Shown here in pieces: positions 1,316-29,794 of a stretch of DNA of 64,000 nt. Position numbers and translations under genes: made by a program. The DNA lies in the NCBI GenBank assembly GCA_947649615.1, contig CANSSG010000012.1, positions 1 to 64,000 of the forward strand, read 5' to 3'. Source of the DNA: an uncultured Clostridia bacterium (lineage in GTDB: Bacteria; Bacillota; Clostridia; Oscillospirales; Oscillospiraceae). The notes below the pieces were generated by a model, which worked only from the letters and a program-made list of their open reading frames with translations, did not search any database and was not told where the DNA came from. How positions within the stretch are numbered: position 1 is the stretch's first letter; the number at the start of each line of letters is the position of its first letter.

Positions 1316-2482
1316 CTATAGGATTCCTGAGCCATACTGCGGATAGTAGTCGGGATAGACCGGGCCGCGCGTATAGGGAAACTCCTTGAGCATATCCTCG
1401 TCTATTTCAATACCCAGACCAGGCTTGTCAGAGGGACGAAGCATGCCATCGGTGATTTTGTCCGTATCAAAGATGGGGTTCTTCAGTATCACATCGCGCA
1501 AAGGCTGGAAGCCGCAGGCATCTACCTCCAACTGCTTCACATTGCGGCAGGACAGCGCCAGATGCAGGTTTGCCGCAATGCCTACGGCGGTAATGCCGCC
1601 AATGTGGGGAATGCACTCAATGCCGTAGGCTTCTGCAAAGCCGCAGATTTTCTTACACTCCATAATGCCGCCGGCAATACAGGCGTCCGGCTGCCAAATC
1701 TGGCCAATGTTGCGGCTCTTCAGATTTTTGAATTCGTACAGGGATGTAACCCGCTCCCCCAGCGCAACAGGAATGGGGGATTCTTTTGACAGCCGCTCGA
1801 GGGATTCCAAATCGTATTGTGAAATGGGTTCTTCATAGAAATAGGGCTTATAAGGCGCAAAGCGGTGCGCCATCTCAAAGGCGGTTTCCGGCGTGTACGT
1901 CATGTATGCATCAATGTACAGCCTGCGGTCCGGGCCAATGAATTCGCGGATATTTTCCACAAACCCTTCGTCCCAATCTTTGCTCTTGCCAACACGGCAT
2001 TTGACGCCCTTGAAGCCGGCTTTCAGCGGGCGGCTGAAAAATTCCCTGTGCCAGTCGTAGTCCACGTCAAAATTTGCCGCGCCGGTGGCATAGATTTCAA
2101 TCTCATCCCGGAAGCCGCCCAGCATCTTATAGAGGGGCAGGCCAGCGCGCTTGCCCAGGATGTCCATGAGCGCGATTTCTACAGCGGCAATCGCCTGGTT
2201 AGAAACGCCCGCGGAACCTAAGTACCCCCAAATCCACGTCCGCATTTTGGAGACCAGCCGCTCCACATTGGCGGGATCTTCGCCGAGGATCAGACGCTTT
2301 AACGTGTGATCGATGATTTCTTTGACCACCAAGGGGTAGGAATGCCCATAGGCGGAGCTGGCCTCGCCCCATCCTACCAGCCCGTCGTCCGTGGTGATTT
2401 TGCAGAGAAGAAACGTGCGGGGAATTTTGGGCGCGTCTTTTATATATTGCAAGGGGTAGGTTTGCACATCAGCAATTTTCAT
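1316..2482 (-). CDS. Enolase-superfamily enzyme, mandelate racemase subgroup
   Basis: A 388-aa enzyme that should abstract the alpha proton of a carboxylate (acid-sugar dehydratase, racemase or similar). Visible landmarks are the strand-2 motif K161-C-R163 (usually KxK), metal ligands D191, E217 and E243, and an Asp-His dyad formed by D266 (QPDACIAGG) and H293 (PHIGG). That dyad is the signature of the mandelate racemase subgroup rather than muconate cycloisomerases. The start has a GGAAAA ribosome site and overlaps the end of the upstream deaminase gene by 14 nt, so the two are translationally linked. It is the last gene of a nucleoside-uptake operon. The substrate cannot be read from the sequence; a product of nucleoside or sugar catabolism is an inference. 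Confidence 0.9.
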   Translation of the reverse strand: MKIADVQTYPLQYIKDAPKIPRTFLLCKITTDDGLVGWGEASSAYGHSYPLVVKEIIDHTLKRLILGEDPANVERLVSKMRTWIWGYLGSAGVSNQAIAAVEIALMDILGKRAGLPLYKMLGGFRDEIEIYATGAANFDVDYDWHREFFSRPLKAGFKGVKCRVGKSKDWDEGFVENIREFIGPDRRLYIDAYMTYTPETAFEMAHRFAPYKPYFYEEPISQYDLESLERLSKESPIPVALGERVTSLYEFKNLKSRNIGQIWQPDACIAGGIMECKKICGFAEAYGIECIPHIGGITAVGIAANLHLALSCRNVKQLEVDACGFQPLRDVILKNPIFDTDKITDGMLRPSDKPGLGIEIDEDMLKEFPYTRGPVYPDYYPQYGSGIL

Positions 2483-3527
2483 AATTCATTTTTCCTTTCT
2501 CAAGCCATCCGCTTATGCAGCCGCGCAGGTACGGCTTGCAGTCATCACGGAAAATGGAATCAACCGCCGCCAGCATAAGCGCCGCGATTCTTTGGGGAGA
2601 CAGTTGGAATACACGGTGCATTTCCTCATATTCCCGGCAAAGCCCCCAATGAATGACGCGTGGGTCGTCTGTGTTTATGCTCACGGATATCCCATCCCCA
2701 ATCATGCGCGGCAAAGGGTGGGCGTACAACTGCTCCAACACGCCAAAAATCACATTGGAAGTAGGACAGCATTCAATGTGTACACCCCGGTCCCGGATTT
2801 CAGCAGGGAGATCCGGGCAAAGGCCGTCGTACAGCTTCAAGCCATGGCCGATCCGCTCCGCGTGAAGAAGGCGGACAGCGGTTTGTATATTCCAGGCGCT
2901 TCCGTATTCGCCGGCATGGACGGTCCTATGGACGCCGGCATCCAGCGCCCTTTGATAAATCCCGGCGAATTGTTCCGGAGGATACGCCTCGTCGGAGAGG
3001 AGGTCGATGCCGCAGACGCCGTTACCCGCACCGTTTATCGCCAATTCCAGCACTTGTGCGGCGTAGCCCAGGTCCATTTCCCGATTAATGCCAAGAATGA
3101 CAGCGGCTTTTATGCCAGACGACCGCTCTCCCAGCCTAATGCCCTCCTCAACTGCCGCAAGGATGTCCTGTCCGGGAATACCCTTCGCCAGCAGCGGCCC
3201 CGCGCTTAGGCGAAGCTCCTGGTAGACGGCGCCCTCTGCCGCCGCGTCCTCAATGGCTTCCGCCAAAATCCGCGCAATGGCTTCCTTATCGGCAAAAGCG
3301 TGGCGGAGCCATGCAAAATGGCTCAGCCCCAGGTGAAACCCCCGTTTGTCGTCCGGCCCGATGGAAATCAGGCGTTCGACCGCTTCCCTGTCCCGCAGCT
3401 TAACAGGCAAAAGGCCGCCAAGCCCCCGGCTCCGAAGAATGTCAATATACGTTTCCGTCCGGACGCTGCCTTCGGCGTGGCGGTGCAGTTCCAGCTTCGG
3501 GACGCTGTGATAAAGCATATCTTCCAT
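2469..3527 (-). CDS. Adenosine deaminase family protein
   Basis: A 352-aa TIM-barrel metal-dependent deaminase. Zinc ligands and catalytic residues are all in place: H15-x-H17 (LHRHAEGS), the HAGE block, RIGHG and NTDDP. Adenosine, adenine or a modified purine nucleoside are the likely substrates. The family splits into adenosine and adenine deaminases, and I cannot separate them safely here. It lies directly downstream of the two nucleoside permeases (5-nt gap) with a GAGGAA ribosome site, which supports deamination of an imported purine nucleoside in the cytoplasm. It overlaps the start of the enolase-superfamily gene. Length is normal for the family. Confidence 0.9.
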   Translation of the reverse strand: MEDMLYHSVPKLELHRHAEGSVRTETYIDILRSRGLGGLLPVKLRDREAVERLISIGPDDKRGFHLGLSHFAWLRHAFADKEAIARILAEAIEDAAAEGAVYQELRLSAGPLLAKGIPGQDILAAVEEGIRLGERSSGIKAAVILGINREMDLGYAAQVLELAINGAGNGVCGIDLLSDEAYPPEQFAGIYQRALDAGVHRTVHAGEYGSAWNIQTAVRLLHAERIGHGLKLYDGLCPDLPAEIRDRGVHIECCPTSNVIFGVLEQLYAHPLPRMIGDGISVSINTDDPRVIHWGLCREYEEMHRVFQLSPQRIAALMLAAVDSIFRDDCKPYLRGCISGWLEKGKMNYENC

Positions 3528-3532
3528 AGCGG

Positions 3533-4417
3533 TTATTCCTCTTCCCGGGTATAATTCTTCCCAAACATGGCGGGGGCTTTCCTGCTGCCGAAGAAAACCA
3601 GGGCAATCACGGTTACAGCATAGGGAAGCGTCAGCAGAAATTCACTGGGTATATCCACCAATAGCTGGGCGTTCATTTGGAAGGCGTCGAAGAAACCCAG
3701 GAAAAGCGTGGTCAGTACGACGGCCAGGGGCTTATAGCCCGCAAAGACCACGGCGGAATAGGACAAAAACCCCATGTTAGCGGTCATGTTCCGGGCAAAG
3801 AAGCCCATCTGCCCCAAGGCCAGTTCGGAACCGCCGATGCCCGCCAGCACACCGCATACCAGCATAGCCTGAAAGCGGTACCGGTTGACGGCAATCCCCA
3901 GGGAATCGGCCGCAGCGGGATTCTCTCCCACGGAACGCACCCGCAGCCCCCAATTCGTCCTGTAAAGCAGGAACCATACGGCGAAAACCGCCCCCGCCAT
4001 AACAAACAGGTTAATGGACTGCTCCCCCAAGACAGGCAGTTGAACCAACGGCAGCTTTTGCACATTGGGCGAAAACCCGGTGTTCCCAAACGCGGGCTGC
4101 ATCAGCACGGTGGTCGCGCCCAGCATAATGAAGTTGAACCCGATGCTGCAAACGACGTGGTTGCCTCGGCATTGATTGATAAAGAAGCTTAGCAGCATCG
4201 CATACAGCAGGCCGAACACAATTGCCGCCGCCTCGCCTAAGACTGCGCTGCCGGTTAAAAAGCAAACATAGGCCGCCGCAAAGCCCGCGCCGAGCAGGCC
4301 CCCTTCCATGGCCATGAAGATAATGCCGGACTGGGCGCATACCACGATGCCAAGCGCGCCGAACAGCATGGGCAGCGTCAGGCGGACCGTGCTGGGCAGC
4401 ATAGAAAGAACGCTCAT
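3533..4417 (-). CDS. Nucleoside ABC transporter permease (NupQ/BmpD type)
   Basis: A 294-aa hydrophobic protein with about eight to nine membrane segments, of the BPD_transp_2 permease family that pairs with BMP-type nucleoside-binding lipoproteins. The EAA-like cytoplasmic loop is recognisable around RVRSVGENPAAADSLGI. Its start overlaps the stop of the other permease by one base (ATGA arrangement) and has a GGAGGTG ribosome site in the end of that gene. It should form the channel as a heterodimer with that neighbour. Specificity for nucleosides comes from the family and from the adjacent deaminase. Confidence 0.92.
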   Translation of the reverse strand: MSVLSMLPSTVRLTLPMLFGALGIVVCAQSGIIFMAMEGGLLGAGFAAAYVCFLTGSAVLGEAAAIVFGLLYAMLLSFFINQCRGNHVVCSIGFNFIMLGATTVLMQPAFGNTGFSPNVQKLPLVQLPVLGEQSINLFVMAGAVFAVWFLLYRTNWGLRVRSVGENPAAADSLGIAVNRYRFQAMLVCGVLAGIGGSELALGQMGFFARNMTANMGFLSYSAVVFAGYKPLAVVLTTLFLGFFDAFQMNAQLLVDIPSEFLLTLPYAVTVIALVFFGSRKAPAMFGKNYTREEE

Positions 4418-5493
4418 CAGGCGGCACCTCCTTCTTCCTTTTTTCGCGCCGGGAAGCGCCTGCGTACCAGCGATAGGACTGTCCCGGCAAAGCGAGGCGT
4501 CACCAGCAAAATGATAATCAGCCCTTGCAGCATGGTAACGAAGTAGGGCGACATGCCGGTCGTACGGCTGATTGCCAACGCACCGACGCGGATCATGGAA
4601 ATAATCAGGGCAGTCACAATGATGCCCAGCGGATGGCTTCCGGCCATATAGGCGATGGCAATGCCGTCAAAGCCATAGTTGGTAAAAAATTCGTCAAAGT
4701 AGGCATGCTGTCCGCCCAGGACCTCCAGCGCACCGCCCATGGACGCCACAGCGCCTCCCAGCGCCATCGCAAGCAGGCAGAGCAGCTTGTTGTTGATCCC
4801 CAGGTACCGCGCCGCAGCCGGCCCCGCTCCGGCGGCGCGCATTTCCAGTCCCTTGGCGGTGCTTCTGAAAAACAAATGGGTGAGGACGCACAGCGCCAAG
4901 GCAATCAACAGCCCCCAAGAAAAGTCCAGTTTGCCGAAGGTTGGGATTTCAGCCGCCGGCAAAATCTTTTTGCTCTGCGGGGAGTAATCCGTTCCTTTAA
5001 AGGGATTGAGGACCAGCCAGGTGACGATATAGGAAACTATGCTGTTGAGCATCAGCGTCGTCACAACCTCGTTCGCGCCCCGGGTAATCTTCAAGAGACC
5101 CGGCAGGCCGGACAGAACAGCGCCCACGGCCATAGCCGCAGCGATGGCCGCAGCGGCATGCAGCCCTGCCGGAAGCCCCAGGTCGGAAGCCCCTACCACA
5201 GCGGCAGTCAATGCGCCGGCGATAATCTGTCCCTCGCCGCCCATGTTAAACATCCCCGTTTGCAGCGGGATGGCAATTGCCAAACCGGAGAGCATGAGCG
5301 GAGTGGCGCGGCGTAGCGTACTGTCAAAGCTGCCAAAGGCCTTTGCGAAAATCGCGCCATAAATGGTCAGCGGGTTCGAGCCAATAGCCATCAGAAATAC
5401 CGCGCCGGCCGCAAAGGCAAACAGCATGGCAAACGCGACCCGCCCTAACTCCCGCAGCGTTCCGGACTGCATGCGGGATAATTTGCTTTTCAT
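4417..5493 (-). CDS. Nucleoside ABC transporter permease (NupP/BmpC type)
   Basis: A 358-aa permease with an N-terminal membrane segment after a short basic stretch and several further segments. It has the family motif GMFNMGGEGQI and the cytoplasmic coupling loop RAAGAGPAAARYLGI. The AAGGAGGTG ribosome site fixes the start. The gene follows the ATPase gene after 3 nt and overlaps the next permease, so the four transporter genes are one transcription unit. It is the membrane half-channel of a BMP-type (Nup/Yuf) nucleoside importer. Confidence 0.92.
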   Translation of the reverse strand: MKSKLSRMQSGTLRELGRVAFAMLFAFAAGAVFLMAIGSNPLTIYGAIFAKAFGSFDSTLRRATPLMLSGLAIAIPLQTGMFNMGGEGQIIAGALTAAVVGASDLGLPAGLHAAAAIAAAMAVGAVLSGLPGLLKITRGANEVVTTLMLNSIVSYIVTWLVLNPFKGTDYSPQSKKILPAAEIPTFGKLDFSWGLLIALALCVLTHLFFRSTAKGLEMRAAGAGPAAARYLGINNKLLCLLAMALGGAVASMGGALEVLGGQHAYFDEFFTNYGFDGIAIAYMAGSHPLGIIVTALIISMIRVGALAISRTTGMSPYFVTMLQGLIIILLVTPRFAGTVLSLVRRRFPARKKEEGGAA

Positions 5494-5496
5494 CCG

Positions 5497-7032
5497 TCAC
5501 ACCTCCTTGCCGCCGCCCATATACAGGCCGATGGCTTCATCGGCAAACCCCTGCGCCGCCCGCTGAACGGCGATAGAGCCATTATATAAAATAGCAATTT
5601 CGTCACTGAGGGCCTTGATTTCATCCAGGTCGCTGGAAATCAGCAAAATGGTTTTCCCTTCCTCCCGCAGCTTGAGCAGCGTACTGTGAACGGACTGGAT
5701 GGCTCCGGCGTCCAGTCCCCTGGTGGGCTGAGAAACCACGACGATTTTAACATCCGGACTGCTCAGTTCCCGGGCCAGGACCACCTTCTGCTGATTACCG
5801 CCGGACATCCTTTTTACCAGAATGCCCGTGTCCCGGGGCCGGATGTCAAAAGTATTGGAAAGCTGGGAGACGAACTGCCGGGCTTTTGCCTTGCGGAAAA
5901 CGCCGTCTTTGACAAACCGCCTGTCTTTCCGGTAGCCCAGCATGATATTTTCATACACGCTGAATGCCAACACAAGCCCCTGGCGGTGGCGGTCCTCCGG
6001 GATAATTTGGATTCCCTCCTGCCGCATCGTGCCGGAGGTGTTTTTTTTGATTTCCTTCGCGCCGATTTGAATGGAGCCGCCGGAAAGCTTTTTTACACCG
6101 GCCAGGACTTCCACCAGCGCAGTCTGCCCGTTGCCATCCACACCGGCCACACCGACAATTCGTCCCGCGTACAGGTTCAGATTGACGTCTCTAAGGGGGC
6201 AGGCGTCCCCTGCGGCGGCGGTGGATAAGCCGCGAAGTTCCACAGAAGGCGGACAGTCATGGCTGTGAAGCTGTGCGCTGACCTGCGCCTTTACCAGTGT
6301 TTTGCCAATCATGGTTGCAGCCAGCTCCGCCTGGGTCGTTTCATTGGTGTTGAAGATGGCGGCTGCCTTTCCCTGGCGCAGCACCAGCACACGGCTGCTG
6401 ATTGCCATGACCTCATGGAGCTTGTGGGTGATAATGATAATCGTCATCCCGGCGGCTTGAAAGCTGCGGAGCAGGTCAAAAAGCGCGTCCGTCTCCTGCG
6501 GCGTCAGCACGGTGGTCGGCTCGTCCAAGATCAGCACCTTGCAGCCCCGGTACAGCGCCTTTAAAATCTCCACGCGCTGCTTGGCTCCCAGCGGCAAGGC
6601 GGATACCACGCTTTTCGGGTCAATGTCCATACCGTACCGACTGCAAAGCGCCCCAACGGCCCTTTCACATTTTTCGCGGCGGAACAAGCGGCGGCTTACC
6701 ATTGTTTCAGCGCCTAAAATAACATTCTGGGCGACGGTGAAGGTTTCTACCAGCTTCAAATGCTGGTGGACCATCGCAATGCCGTGTTCGATGGCAGTTT
6801 GAGGAGAATATTCCACCGGCATCTCCACCCCATCAATCGCAATGGATCCGGAATCCCGCCTGCAAAGCCCGAACAAGACGTTCATCAGCGTTGTTTTCCC
6901 CGCGCCATTTTCACCAAGCAGGGAAATGATTTCCCCCTTTTTGACGCTTAGCGAAATATGGTCATTGGCGCAGGACGGCCCAAACATCTTCACAATGTCC
7001 CGCATTTCGATCATGTTTTTCAATGGCGGCAT
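5497..7032 (-). CDS. Nucleoside ABC transporter ATP-binding protein, double NBD
   Basis: A 511-aa protein with two nucleotide-binding domains, as in sugar and nucleoside importers of the RbsA/NupO kind. Domain 1 has the Walker A GENGAGKTT and Walker B VLILDEPTTVL, with a degenerate signature (ALPLGAKQRVE). Domain 2 has a degenerate Walker A (GVDGNGQTA), an intact MSGGNQQK signature and the site VVSQPTRGLD. Such unequal sites are usual for this family. The GGAGG sits immediately before the ATG at 7032, so a TTG nine bases later is an alternative start. It lies between the binding-protein and permease genes. Confidence 0.94.
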   Translation of the reverse strand: MPPLKNMIEMRDIVKMFGPSCANDHISLSVKKGEIISLLGENGAGKTTLMNVLFGLCRRDSGSIAIDGVEMPVEYSPQTAIEHGIAMVHQHLKLVETFTVAQNVILGAETMVSRRLFRREKCERAVGALCSRYGMDIDPKSVVSALPLGAKQRVEILKALYRGCKVLILDEPTTVLTPQETDALFDLLRSFQAAGMTIIIITHKLHEVMAISSRVLVLRQGKAAAIFNTNETTQAELAATMIGKTLVKAQVSAQLHSHDCPPSVELRGLSTAAAGDACPLRDVNLNLYAGRIVGVAGVDGNGQTALVEVLAGVKKLSGGSIQIGAKEIKKNTSGTMRQEGIQIIPEDRHRQGLVLAFSVYENIMLGYRKDRRFVKDGVFRKAKARQFVSQLSNTFDIRPRDTGILVKRMSGGNQQKVVLARELSSPDVKIVVVSQPTRGLDAGAIQSVHSTLLKLREEGKTILLISSDLDEIKALSDEIAILYNGSIAVQRAAQGFADEAIGLYMGGGKEV

Positions 7033-7055
7033 CCTCCGATTTCCCGTAAGCGCGG

Positions 7056-8150
7056 TTAGGAGTAAGACTCCGACCAGGCATCCAATTCCTCAACCGTGCC
7101 GGGAGGAACGATCTCCCCCGCAGTCAGTTTGCCCTTGACCTCGTCCATAACGGAGCGGACCTCTTCAGGCACCTCGAAATTCTCCTGGTAACTGAAAGCT
7201 ATACCGCTGTTGGCATAAGAATTCAAAACATTCTCGCCGCCCCTAAAGGTCCCGGCAACAAAGCCGTCGAAAAATTCTCCAATCACGGCATCGTGGTCCT
7301 TATGGGAAGACGCCAGCATATGCACGGCGTCAAGGCTGTTCTGATTTGCGTCAAAGCCAATCATAAACCGGTCCAAGGTCTTGGCCGCTTCCAGCGCGCC
7401 CAAGGCGGAACCGCCGGCGTTGTGGAATAAGATGTTTACGCCGGCGTTATACATAGTAAGGGCAAGTTCCTTTGCCGCAGCCTGATCGGCCCAGGACCCA
7501 ATTTCCGCCACAACCACATCCGCGTCGGGTTTGATATACCGGATTCCTGCCTGGTAGCCTGTGATGGCGCCAACTGTGCTGGGCAGGTTCACGCCGATCA
7601 GCGCGGCATATTTGTCCCCTGCCGTCCAAGTTTTTGTTTCACCCCCGACGGAGACGGCGCCATAGTCCTCCATAAGCGCCGCGAAAACGCCAGCCATGAA
7701 CCCCATCTCATTTTTGGCGTAGGACAAGGAGGTAATGTTAGGCTGCCCTTCGCAGGACACGTCGTAAACCATATACTTTTGGTCAGGGTAATCATCCTGC
7801 ATTTCAATGGCAACATCCAGGCCGTGGTAGAGCATAATAATCAAATCATACTCCTTGGACGTGGTATAATCCTGCAATGTCAACGACATGTCGCCGCTGC
7901 CGCATTCAGACACATCCAACTGAAAGCCATGCTTTTCCTGCGCCTTTTTGACGGCATTGCAGAGCATGTCGGACAGCGAGTTGTCACCCAAGCGTTCCAC
8001 CAGCAGGCCGATTTTCAATTCCGAAGCTGCCGAACTGCCCGGCGTTTTGGTGTTTGCGTCTCCCTGCGGGGCGTTACAAGCGCAAAAAGACGCCAAGATC
8101 CCTAAAATAGATAAAAGAATAGCAAGAAGTTTGGAAAGCGGCCGTTTCAT
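7056..8150 (-). CDS. BMP family nucleoside-binding lipoprotein
   Basis: A 364-aa substrate-binding lipoprotein. The start at 8150 is chosen because it has an AAAGGAG site and begins a classic signal peptide (MKRPLSKLLAILLS) ending in a Cys lipobox (FCAC). The mature protein has the Bmp/PnrA pattern: ELKIGLLVERLG at the N-terminus, then YDLIIMLYHGLD, LSYAKNEMGFMAG and NILFHNAGGSALG. These proteins bind purine nucleosides outside the membrane and deliver them to the permeases encoded downstream. It is the first gene of the operon and follows a strong promoter with a leader of about 200 nt. A longer in-frame extension to 8339 has no ribosome site and lies inside that leader. Confidence 0.93.
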   Translation of the reverse strand: MKRPLSKLLAILLSILGILASFCACNAPQGDANTKTPGSSAASELKIGLLVERLGDNSLSDMLCNAVKKAQEKHGFQLDVSECGSGDMSLTLQDYTTSKEYDLIIMLYHGLDVAIEMQDDYPDQKYMVYDVSCEGQPNITSLSYAKNEMGFMAGVFAALMEDYGAVSVGGETKTWTAGDKYAALIGVNLPSTVGAITGYQAGIRYIKPDADVVVAEIGSWADQAAAKELALTMYNAGVNILFHNAGGSALGALEAAKTLDRFMIGFDANQNSLDAVHMLASSHKDHDAVIGEFFDGFVAGTFRGGENVLNSYANSGIAFSYQENFEVPEEVRSVMDEVKGKLTAGEIVPPGTVEELDAWSESYS

Positions 8151-8163
8151 AAGAAAGCTCCTT

Positions 8164-8259
8164 TCAAAAAGCAATTGGAGGATTACAACAAGTTCTAGTG
8201 TACCCTCTTTCTTTGAAACAGTTCCGCTCTCGTTCTTCCATACACAGATAGCATGCCAT
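8164..8259 (-). other. Possible 31-aa leader ORF upstream of the nucleoside operon
   Basis: An ATG at 8259, 12 nt after a GGAG, opens a 31-codon frame containing five cysteines. It stops at 8164, just before the ribosome site of the binding-protein gene. It lies wholly within the predicted 5' leader. It could be a regulatory leader peptide or chance; nothing identifies a function. Confidence 0.2.
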
Positions 8260-8265
8260 CTGTGT
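8242..8265. promoter_or_regulatory. 24-bp palindrome in the operon leader
   Basis: ACACAGAT and ATCTGTGT flank a GCATGC-centred core, giving a near-perfect palindrome about 85 nt downstream of the predicted transcription start. It could be an operator (roadblock repressor) or an RNA hairpin that overlaps the possible leader ORF start. I do not recognise it as a known riboswitch, and no purine-riboswitch core is visible in the leader. Confidence 0.45.
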
Positions 8266-8354
8266 GCTACTCTCCTTTCTTTTGGACCAGGCGTCGGAAA
8301 TGTCATATTCAGTTGTGCGGCGGTGTTGCAATGCTGCAATCCTCTATGGAGAAC

Positions 8355-14101: not shown

Positions 14102-14202
14102 GTGCCGCACTGTTTACACCGGCAAAATTTTGCGGAAAAAGCAACCCGCTGGACATATCAAGCATAAGCCGCGCATAGGCTTGTCAGAGAGGAGTGAGAC
14201 CC

Positions 14203-14748
14203 ATGGAACGGCTGCCGCTGAACTGCCAAGGGGAACGGCGCGGGGAGGTCACCCTGGCCCTCTGGGGGCCGAACGGAGCGCGGACGGAAATTATCGCACA
14301 GATGGATGACCCTGGGGACGGATTGTACCGGGCCTTCCTGCTGGGGGAGCGGGGAGAGCTTGCCCTGGGGGTACTGGCCCCGGAAAACGGGCGGTTGAGC
14401 GTATGCCGGAGAGTATACAACCGGGACGTGGGGGCGTTGGGTCCGTTGGTCCGCGGGGAAGCGAGGCGGTCCTTCCGGTTTGAGGAAACTGGATTGTGCT
14501 GGCGGGAGACCTGCTGTCCGGCCCAGCTATTTCAGAGCCAGTTCCTTATCCACCGCCTGCGGCCCATCGGGCGGGGCTGGTGGCGGCGGGAGGGCGGCGT
14601 CCTCCTGCTGGCCCTGCCGCTGGAGCCGGAAAAGCCTTTTCCGCTGGAAGCCCTGTTCTGCCTGGGGCGGGTGCAGTGCGTGGAGGGGGCGCGGTGCGTC
14701 GTGTACGCTTTCCGGGAAGAGGAACCAATACTTTGGCATGATGTGTAA
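14203..14748 (+). CDS. Hypothetical protein, 181 aa
   Basis: An open frame with an AGGAG site eight bases before the ATG at 14203, strongly biased codon positions and no overlap with other genes. The sequence begins with a short beta-rich part (GEVTLALWGPNGARTEI, ELALGVLAPENGRL). It continues with an Arg-rich basic centre with two adjacent cysteines (CWRETCC) and a Leu/Pro-rich C-terminus. It has no signal peptide, no membrane segment and no family I recognise. It stands alone, divergent from metG and convergent with the metalloprotease gene. Confidence 0.75.
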   Translation: MERLPLNCQGERRGEVTLALWGPNGARTEIIAQMDDPGDGLYRAFLLGERGELALGVLAPENGRLSVCRRVYNRDVGALGPLVRGEARRSFRFEETGLCWRETCCPAQLFQSQFLIHRLRPIGRGWWRREGGVLLLALPLEPEKPFPLEALFCLGRVQCVEGARCVVYAFREEEPILWHDV

Positions 14749-14787: not shown

Positions 14788-15651
14788 TTATAATTGATAC
14801 TGCTTTACAAATTCTTTGTATAGATCACATACAGTCTGGATTTCCAGGCCCAGCAGACTGTCAAAGGGATGCGTCTCCGTCAGATGCCGCACGAACCTGG
14901 CCCCCAGATAGTACCCTGTGTCCCCCCACCCATGATAGGAGCACCAGTCGCCGAAATACCGCTGGCTGGACGGCGTCATGGAGGACAGGTCCGCGTGGAA
15001 GTCCGATAAGATCTGGGGAAAATGTCCCTCGCACCAGGCCAGCCACCCGTTTTTATCCTGATGGTAATAGCGGGGGTTCCCCACCAAGGCCTGCTCGAAG
15101 TACATGGCGGCGCCTTCGGTGAAAAGCTGCCAGACGAAGTTTTCCGCGCTGCTGGCCGGTTCCCGCTCCAGGACGCCGTATTGCGACTGGTATGCATGGC
15201 CCAGCTCGTGGTAAACCAGGCCGTACATGTCATCCACGCCATGCCAGCCCAATTCCAGTATCTTTTCCACGCCCAGCAGGATTACATCCCGGCCGTTGAC
15301 CCGTGTGACCCATCCGGCGCCGTTGCATAAGCCCAGGTACAAAATCACATCGGCGTCCAGCGTCCGCCCGAAGCAAGCGGATACCCGCTGGTCCAGCCCT
15401 TCCACCACAGCGGCGAAGGATTCCCGCAGCACATCCAGCTTCGGATTCCCAGGGACAGCGTTGAGGATGGGGAGAAAGTCCTTTTCAAAGGTGTACAGGC
15501 CGCTGTCCAGGCACTTTTTCACATCATCCGTGAACATGTGGATTGGGTTGGGGCAAACGGACTCTATATAGGCCGTCCATTGGCTGTGTTGAAATACGCC
15601 GTCCGGAAACAGGCTGGGAATTTGGACGGATGCGTCCAGCGTTTTTATCAT
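14788..15651 (-). CDS. Putative zinc metallopeptidase (DUF2268-like)
   Basis: A 287-aa protein with an HExxH zinc site (VYHELGHAYQ) near residue 147 and a downstream TEGAAMYFEQ helix. The glutamate in that helix is placed as the third ligand of a gluzincin. This pattern matches the DUF2268 group of predicted Zn-dependent proteases. It lacks a signal peptide, so it should act in the cytoplasm. A GGAGGACA site fixes the start at 15651, and a promoter lies just upstream. The substrate is unknown. Confidence 0.75.
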   Translation of the reverse strand: MIKTLDASVQIPSLFPDGVFQHSQWTAYIESVCPNPIHMFTDDVKKCLDSGLYTFEKDFLPILNAVPGNPKLDVLRESFAAVVEGLDQRVSACFGRTLDADVILYLGLCNGAGWVTRVNGRDVILLGVEKILELGWHGVDDMYGLVYHELGHAYQSQYGVLEREPASSAENFVWQLFTEGAAMYFEQALVGNPRYYHQDKNGWLAWCEGHFPQILSDFHADLSSMTPSSQRYFGDWCSYHGWGDTGYYLGARFVRHLTETHPFDSLLGLEIQTVCDLYKEFVKQYQL

Positions 15652-16978: not shown

Positions 16979-17142
16979 AAATGGGGGAAAAAGTTGCAGA
17001 AATTGATTTTTTTGAAGTTGGAAATCATGCTGAAAATGGACATCTTTCGGCAGACAAAAGGACAAAATCCTCAGACAAGTGGTTCGTTTTAAAAAAGGCA
17101 AGCACACGTTGGAGACGGACGGCGAATGAACTCCGAGCGGCT

Positions 17143-17182
17143 GCAAAAAGACGGCGCGGCTTATGCCGCGCCGTCTTTTTGC
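17143..17182 (-). terminator. Terminator of the barnase-barstar operon
   Basis: A perfect 18-bp stem (GCAAAAAGACGGCGCGGC and complement) with a TTAT loop. The A-tract/T-tract arms let it act in either orientation. It lies 19 nt beyond the barstar stop. Confidence 0.9.
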
Positions 17183-17200
17183 AAACTGGCCCCTTATCCA

Positions 17201-17476
17201 TCATTCCACGGGAAACAGCACTTCCAGCTTCGGGTTGCTCCGGTCCGCGTCTTCCAAGGTCTGGCACAGCGCCGCACCATAGTCCCCCAGCCAGCTTATC
17301 AGTATATCGCGGCGGCGCACAATCAGGCGGGTGGGATTGCTGCGCTCCGTCAGCAGGTCGTACAGCGCGTCCAGGTTCCTGCCGTAATGCTCCGGCAGGG
17401 AGAGGGCTTCCGCCAGATGGTCGTGGGCAGCCCGCCGGTTTAACATCCGCGCCCCGTCAAGGATGATGGTTTCCAT
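17201..17476 (-). CDS. Barstar family ribonuclease inhibitor
   Basis: A 91-aa cytoplasmic inhibitor. It carries the barstar interface: LPEHYGRNLDALYDLLTE, matching the barnase-binding helix with the conserved Tyr, Asn and two Asp (equivalents of Y29/30, N33, D35, D39). The rest also follows the family (LIVRRRD, ALCQTLEDA, KLEVLF). It starts 2 nt after the stop of the barnase gene, with GGAGG in that gene's last codons, so the pair is co-translated. The role is to protect the producer's cytoplasm from the ribonuclease. An ATG 6 nt earlier is too close to the GGAGG. Confidence 0.93.
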   Translation of the reverse strand: METIILDGARMLNRRAAHDHLAEALSLPEHYGRNLDALYDLLTERSNPTRLIVRRRDILISWLGDYGAALCQTLEDADRSNPKLEVLFPVE

Positions 17477-17478
17477 CC

Positions 17479-18114
17479 TCATTCCTCCCCATACAAGAGG
17501 TCGAAGGTCTCATAGTGGTCCTCCGTATAGTAAATACGGCCATCGTCGGAGTATACGATGCGCTTCGCGCCCCGGCTGCTCTCGCCAATGGTATCTATAT
17601 CGCACTCGTGGTACCTGCCCTCAGGCAGAATGCCCTCCCGGTTGCCAAAGGTGTCGCCGCCAATGGCGCAGCCGGGGGCGACCTGCTCTACCGAGCCTCC
17701 GGTCCAGCCTAAGTCGCGGGCTTCGTTCTTCGTGATGTAATTGTCAGGCAAATGGCCGTACGTGTACAGATAGAGGGAGACGTCCCCCGCGCTGTTGTAG
17801 GTGCCGCCCTCGTCTAAGGCCGGCTCCTCCTCATAGGGAAGGTCCTCCCCAACGGCAGCGCCGGTGCCGTCAGATGGGGCTTCGTCTTCCGGGACTCCAG
17901 CGGGAGGGACTGTTTCTTCCGCGTCCGGGGCGGGCGGTTCTTCGCCCTCCGGCTCGCCGTCAATGAGGTACTCGTCTCCTCCGGTATAAATGCCTGTGGG
18001 ACCGTCTGCGCCGCCTATGACGCCTGCCTCCGGCAGGTCCGCGCAGCCTGTCAGGGCAATTGCAACGCTCAGCAGCAGGGCCGCCAGGGCGGCCAGCGTG
18101 TGGTTGGCTTTCAT
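17479..18114 (-). CDS. Lipoprotein-anchored barnase-type ribonuclease
   Basis: A 211-aa precursor. Residues 1-24 form a signal peptide ending in a lipobox (LTGC, C24), so the mature enzyme should be lipid-anchored on the outer face of the membrane. Residues 31-44 contain GGADGPTGIYTG. Residues 47-105 are an acidic Pro/Glu-rich linker. Residues 115-211 are a barnase domain, with LPDNYITKNEARDLGW, the GGDTFGNREG loop and the catalytic set E170, R181, R185 and H200 (barnase E73, R83, R87, H102). Known barnases are simply secreted; the membrane anchor and linker are unusual. A near-consensus promoter precedes it and barstar follows directly. Confidence 0.93.
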   Translation of the reverse strand: MKANHTLAALAALLLSVAIALTGCADLPEAGVIGGADGPTGIYTGGDEYLIDGEPEGEEPPAPDAEETVPPAGVPEDEAPSDGTGAAVGEDLPYEEEPALDEGGTYNSAGDVSLYLYTYGHLPDNYITKNEARDLGWTGGSVEQVAPGCAIGGDTFGNREGILPEGRYHECDIDTIGESSRGAKRIVYSDDGRIYYTEDHYETFDLLYGEE

Positions 18115-18146
18115 CTGTCTCTTTCTCCTTGGTTGGTTTGCTTTAT

Positions 18147-18174
18147 ATTATAAAACGCCTGGGGAAAATGTCAA
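18147..18174 (-). promoter_or_regulatory. Strong promoter of the barnase-barstar pair
   Basis: TTGACA (18169-18174), 16 bp and TATAAT (18147-18152) on the minus strand: both hexamers are full consensus. It sits about 30 bp upstream of the barnase start, with an AAGGAGA ribosome site in between. Confidence 0.8.
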
Positions 18175-29765: not shown

Positions 29766-29794
29766 ATTATAGCGAAAAAACCAGAGGTTGTCAA
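29766..29794 (-). promoter_or_regulatory. Full-consensus promoter of the Opp operon
   Basis: TTGACA (29789-29794), 17 bp and TATAAT (29766-29771) on the minus strand: both hexamers and the spacing are ideal, implying high expression. Confidence 0.85.

Follow-up and report, generated by a model that had tools for sequence, protein, structure and literature searches.

Barnase has so far been an enzyme that cells secrete in soluble form. The locus described here, from an uncultured bacterium of the Clostridia, encodes a barnase that begins with a lipobox and is followed by a barstar, and this raises the question of whether such an enzyme stays on the cell that makes it and what it would do there. 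The DNA analysed is one stretch of 64,000 nucleotides (contig CANSSG010000012.1, positions 1 to 64,000), which we call the window. An initial annotation, made from the letters alone, had proposed that the enzyme sits on the outside of the producer cell and had named contact-dependent competition, RNA scavenging and phage defence as possible uses. Its reading of the anatomy is confirmed by our analysis and the observation is real, while the three uses fared differently, as discussed below.

Organization and expression signals of the operon

The barnase and barstar genes make up a self-contained two-gene unit on the minus strand, running from 18174 to 17141 of the window (Table 1). The consensus promoter that had been claimed for it is indeed exact, and exact TTGACA/TATAAT promoters were found twice in the window against 0.02 expected from shuffles, the other one (TTGACA-17-TATAAT) being located at 29766..29794 on the minus strand. 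As a family trait the exact promoter was rejected, as among 15 genes compared (that of the window, 13 of the same genus and that of locus L187) 12/12 was seen in the window gene only and the 14 relatives' genes scored 7-11. Downstream of barstar lies a strong hairpin of -40.1 kcal/mol (z -7.5 against shuffles), in which a T5 run in the 3' arm is paired with A5 in the fold; it was absent from the pattern-scan listing, and being palindromic it may serve both strands. Two ORFs near the operon, at 14194..14748 and 14788..15651, were without Pfam match.

Table 1. Features of the barnase-barstar locus, in window coordinates
Feature	Position	Strand	Basis
Promoter, sigma-70-type consensus TTGACA-16 nt-TATAAT	18147..18174	-	both hexamers exact, 12/12
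Lipoprotein barnase gene, 211 aa	17479..18114	-	PF00545, AlphaFold2 model, Foldseek
Predicted signal peptide with lipobox LTGC; C24 codon 18045-18043	18043..18114	-	sequence, lipobox pattern and hydrophobicity script
GVIGGADGPT, residues 31-40, OadB hairpin-tip-like	17995..18024	-	sub-threshold PF03977 and TIGR01109 matches
Acidic low-complexity linker, residues 25-105, motif included	17800..18042	-	charge script, low pLDDT
Barnase catalytic domain, residues 106-211	17482..17799	-	Pfam, solved relatives, alignment, Foldseek
Barstar gene, 93 aa (91 aa from second ATG at 17476)	17201..17482	-	PF01337, solved barstars
Terminator-like 20-bp hairpin	17141..17184	-	fold energy against shuffles
Run of genes for an adenosine deaminase and a BMP-type ABC importer	2469..8339	-	scavenging context

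Neighbour genes of the window barnase were shared by 4 of 15 other same-genus loci (L120, L121, L124, L125), and none was seen at the remaining 11, where flanks were of about 1.5 kb or less. Nothing pointed to a mobile origin: a search of 50,697 phage records was negative at E 1e-5, and the 12 matching records of the plasmid collection reached at most 54% query coverage at less than 60% identity.

The enzyme and its inhibitor

The window protein matched PF00545 with 65.7 bits (5.8e-18, residues 121-206), well over the curated cut-off of 24, and its best solved relative is barnase (3.8e-24). The catalytic residues pointed out in the initial annotation, E170, R181, R185 and H200, were found in their places and, together with K129, were invariant in 27 aligned sequences including that of the window, all preselected for lipobox and barstar. 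By barnase numbering and by role we take these five to be the active-site residues of the enzyme, namely one Lys, one Glu, a pair of Arg and one His. An AlphaFold2 model of the protein built with the 27 sequences gave a mean pLDDT of 78.8 and a pTM of 0.56; ten-residue blocks of the barnase domain stood mostly at pLDDT 91-98, while the linker was low, and short strand-like pairs flanked the motif at residues 31-40 with low confidence. The top PDB matches of this model in Foldseek were again barnase (E 1.6e-12, TM about 0.9 by target length). The barnase domain is complete, and RNase activity is predicted for it.

The barstar passed its cut-off as clearly (PF01337, 62.6 bits, 3.6e-17, curated cut-off 23.4). 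Its match to a solved barstar (2.1e-5) was confined to the first half of the protein, where NLDALYD aligned with NLDALWD of barstar, and the second half was left unaligned; the acidic interface residues of barstar are those of a D-x3-D pattern and a further Glu. The gene had been said to follow within 2 nt of barnase, which holds for the second ATG (METI...), 2 nt past the barnase stop, while the first ATG instead gives an overlap of 4 nt. Barstar is without signal peptide. In a relative, L191, the barstar found 3' of barnase carries a repetitive N-terminal extension of DNNVPDNN type.

The predicted lipid anchor and the acidic linker

The lipobox that had been described ahead of barnase is present, C24 standing in LTGC downstream of a hydrophobic stretch. 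As the same genome encodes Lgt (2.9e-70) and LspA (3.4e-37), lipidation of C24 is possible. The acidic linker also stood as to charge, Asp plus Glu exceeding Lys plus Arg by 24 in a script count; its length had been put at about 60 residues and did not stand, as about 80 residues separate C24 from the domain start at residue 106. The linkers were net acidic in all 71 lipobox frames of the order and the genus together, with a median of 66 residues and a range of 32-238, the longest belonging to the doubtful frame L087. The predicted tethering by lipid is well supported by sequence and by its recurrence in relatives (57 of 89 frames of the order; 71 of the best 80 of at least 572 relatives), and barnase is probably fixed by lipid to the outer face of the cell of this gut-type bacterium.

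Spread and anchor types among relatives

In the order, 80 of 394 genomes carry PF00545, which gave 88 matches in all. All 88 places were taken, that of the window included, and our own profile gave 89 frames since L078, a gene with an internal stop, was counted twice. A lipobox, called by pattern and a hydrophobicity rule rather than by a trained predictor, was present in 57 of these frames, two of them doubtful with partial or weak barnase matches (L086, L087), and 50 of the 57 have barstar beside them. Nine more, 8 of them next to barstar, lack a lipobox and have a membrane helix or a signal, and three have a dockerin-like region (none with barstar). The remaining 20, in which cut frames are mixed with proteins of phage or toxin type, are without anchor, and barstar accompanies 14 of them. 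In the genus of the window the gene is present in 16 of 25 genomes. In named genomes we obtained at least 572 relatives in 593 stretches and kept the best 80, which are top scorers and not a random sample; a lipobox was called in 71 of these best 80, and the other 9, of which L253 is unsure by eye, have no lipobox but a helix or a signal. Barstar is within reach in 71 of the best 80 of at least 572, and among the nine without it L202 and L207 lie about 130 bases or less from a contig end. The sources of the best 80 of at least 572 include Butyrivibrio proteoclasticus, Schaedlerella arabinosiphila and many bins of rumen and gut Clostridia, and two are titled Treponema, titles being as recorded and mis-binning possible.

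The anchor type varies among lipid, helix and dockerin-like forms, which suggests that, as read from these predicted anchors, it is attachment that is conserved across relatives; we think that attachment itself matters. A barnase-barstar pair with a predicted surface anchor is common in the group to which the window belongs, and different anchors seem to hold barnase on the surface in many Clostridia of gut and rumen, a hint that RNA is handled at the cell face. In the tree of the barnases, which is poorly resolved with few columns and many open forks, motif state changes at least 6 times and anchor type at least 11 times.

In L051, L057 and L065 the dockerin-like region precedes barnase and no barstar is adjacent; the genomes of these three (G130, G076 and G320) also encode a membrane-anchored barnase with barstar, at L013, L026 and L015, respectively. 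The one dockerin-barnase that was examined passed the Dockerin_1 cut-off, and no fusion of dockerin and barnase was evident from the titles of the papers listed for the two together. In L071, L076, L083, L084 and L085 barnase is at the C-terminus of phage-structural-looking proteins with a CxxC...HG stretch and barstar lies behind; ribonuclease was the sole Pfam name returned for L071 and L083. These five are presumably comparable to MuF.

An OadB-like motif next to the lipobox

Seven residues after C24 begins GVIGGADGPT, and this anchor-proximal motif is a more surprising element than the barnase-barstar pair. The OAD_beta profile PF03977 matched the window barnase below threshold, with 13.2 bits over 33 residues against a cut-off of 31.6, and in the NCBI OadB models (TIGR01109) barnase residues 29-46 aligned to OadB 195-212 with D37 on 203. 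Passages of the study of solved OadB place Asp203 at a hairpin tip and state that its replacement abolished sodium binding (PMC7274780). Membership of the window barnase in OadB was rejected, the match being short and sub-threshold and the transmembrane scaffold missing. A DNA pattern for GG(A/S)DGPT had two matches in the genome of the window, one in OadB and the other in the barnase gene.

Among 15 same-genus barnase frames with an N-terminus, the sixteenth (L133) being cut and left out, nine including the window have the form [GS]GxDG[PT]T after the cysteine, in L132 22 residues behind it; the motif is decayed in L123 and L125 and none was found in L124, L130, L131 and L134. Mean pairwise identity of 14 same-genus proteins was 0.53 at residues 31-40, 0.30 at 41-46, 0.26 at 47-85, 0.41 at 86-104 and 0.83 in the barnase domain. 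The motif as a DNA-level insert was disfavoured: when 14 barnase copies were compared, of which three do not differ in the motif stretch, 632 of the 728 comparisons showed the same core residue, and in 252 of these 632 the codons were different. The motif is seen as well in L187 and in a second barnase group from another family (L025, L034, L067). It is absent from 53 of the 57 lipobox frames of the order and from 77 of the best 80 of at least 572 relatives, and since most barnase relatives are without it, its role in barnase is unproven.

We also looked for the motif outside barnase. The 80 motif places studied, which are no census (30, then 30 that are mostly top scorers, then 20 chosen mainly by frame length), were sorted by a script pattern and by eye into 42 OadB, of which a contig end truncates one, the window barnase, one doubtful frame and 36 other proteins; L101, whose pattern match resembles a chance frame, was excluded from the real proteins. 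By eye, 13 of the 36 non-OadB Clostridia proteins have the motif directly after a lipobox cysteine, 16 beside a membrane helix and 7 elsewhere. One of the 16, L173, is a small protein with an N-terminal helix followed by three tandem copies of IIGGADGPTQIYT. Seven non-OadB motif proteins taken to Pfam gave one rhodanese domain and one Ig-like domain, and three of the seven passed the OAD_beta cut-off, namely L143 (54 residues), L173 (three copies) and L161, whose match spans both helices and which is possibly a real OadB fragment.

Of the 291 genomes sampled from the class, 218 were hit by the motif profile, to which OadB itself also responds, and 217 by PF03977; 215 of the latter score as OadB (three weaker, 1e-72 to 1e-88). 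A motif match without OadB was noticed in G646 (75% complete), G789 (80%) and G013 (chance-level E 0.03). Full-length OadB was encoded by 42 of 45 named carriers of non-OadB motif proteins as against 215 of 291 genomes in the class, kinship being uncorrected; the carriers without it are G139 (99% complete), G545 (70%) and G646. Motif carriers thus mostly have OadB, and G139 is a clear counterexample. A literature search with the strings 'GGADGPT' and 'IGGADGP' found no paper that prints either, a search by which motifs given as logos only would be missed. We tentatively propose, giving it a somewhat less than even chance, that G-[IV]-I-G-G-[AE]-D-G-P-T-x-[IV] is a portable membrane-proximal module on the outside of the cell, derived from or mimicking the hairpin tip of the OadB sodium site, which is carried by many unrelated lipoproteins and small membrane proteins of Clostridia and does a shared surface job; this might be to dock to one partner common to all, to bind cations or to allow release in a regulated way. 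Should the module be real, it would amount to a surface tag of a new type, by which exported proteins of unrelated kinds are linked to a sodium pump, and matches of the OAD_beta profile to some non-pump proteins would be explained.

Possible role as a surface ribonuclease

We favour, at a probability of about 0.5, the reading that the two-gene chromosomal operon provides a cell-surface RNase with a cytosolic safety inhibitor, for scavenging of RNA. Barnase would be exported and lipidated at C24, and the acidic, disordered arm would hold it outside the membrane, reaching into or through the wall; extracellular RNA would be cut near the cell and the fragments taken up, and barstar would stay in the cytosol and neutralise any barnase that folds before export. 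RNA scavenging is the best fit among the three uses proposed earlier, and its context is thin. The adenosine deaminase and importer genes of the window may belong to this context; the importer is at least 9 kb from barnase, and its nearest NCBIfam models are parts of a putative vitamin B6 transporter, none over cut-off. The genome has no PF02872 5'-nucleotidase, which leaves the step after RNA cleavage unexplained and counts against scavenging.

Neighbour genes were counted among the best 80 of at least 572 relatives. A gene of the pectinesterase cluster is near barnase at 7 loci, at 5 of them less than 100 bp upstream, and one of the GH28 cluster also at 7, one member of each cluster being confirmed by Pfam; together they mark 8 loci, all titled Butyrivibrio (L210, L212, L215, L216, L226, L239, L245 and L246). 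At a ninth locus, L200, titled Ruminococcus, a dockerin-bearing pectinesterase lies 216 bp upstream of barnase. It looks as if plant cells were being dismantled, the link being mostly that of one genus. Other neighbours that recur in this set are ABC proteins of generic type, at 11 and at 5 loci, and, at 4 loci each, a metallophosphoesterase and an HD phosphohydrolase, from each of which one member was tested; a few further clusters extend to 4-6 loci each. Besides barstar and the pectin genes, neighbours are few and none is decisive.

An enzyme that is tethered may be shed later, if a surface protease cuts the anchor-proximal stretch or the linker and frees a soluble RNase like the classic secreted one. 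The linker is long and predicted to be disordered, and both in the window barnase and in the majority of the same-genus barnases that bear the motif, the motif starts no more than 7 residues from the cysteine. We know of no protease site for this motif, however, and the anchor is kept in 6 of the 15 same-genus frames in which the motif has decayed or gone, as it is in the order frames and top-scoring relatives counted above that lack it; we regard shedding as unlikely. The same surface location would also serve a control of extracellular RNA other than feeding, such as degradation of biofilm or host RNA, but no supporting context came up in the analyses above, and we consider this use quite unlikely.

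The uses that had been proposed beside scavenging fared worse. In polymorphic toxins the toxin module can be a barnase and the immunity module a barstar, and passages of PMC3482391 call simple pairs of the two a possible incipient form of these toxins; the window pair might be an incipient toxin-immunity pair acting by contact on neighbour cells; anchorless barnases, some in the phage-structural-looking proteins, are present in the same order. Against this, Pfam finds beside the anchor the ribonuclease and the sub-threshold OAD_beta stretch only, and no delivery or trafficking domain. Moreover, the tree sets its 12 no-anchor rows apart, to one side of the remaining labelled rows (support 85), a split at which long branches meet and which leaves 123 unlabelled rows uncounted. 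We give competition little probability. For phage defence we found nothing beyond its having been suggested: no PADLOC model matched barnase or barstar at E 0.1, the search of phage records mentioned above was equally negative, and an outer RNase would not be expected to meet injected DNA, which makes this use hardly credible.

Comparison with known systems

The pair has the gene order of toxin and immunity, and the domains, of the polymorphic toxins with Tox-Barnase and Imm-Barstar (MuF and others), as these are described in passages of PMC3482391, and differs from them in having no delivery or trafficking domain by Pfam. Its likeness to the beta subunit of oxaloacetate decarboxylase, OadB (PF03977), is that of the short stretch at residues 29-46, D37 falling on 203, and it is unlike OadB in the rest, being without a transmembrane scaffold. 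With the barnase-barstar pair of Bacillus amyloliquefaciens the window pair shares enzyme fold, catalytic residues and inhibitor family, the solved barnases and binases listed by Foldseek being 43-50% identical to the window enzyme. Passages of PMC8294519 describe Bacillus barnase as a secreted RNase with a signal peptide and a propeptide; the window barnase differs from it by the lipobox, the long acidic linker and the extra motif.
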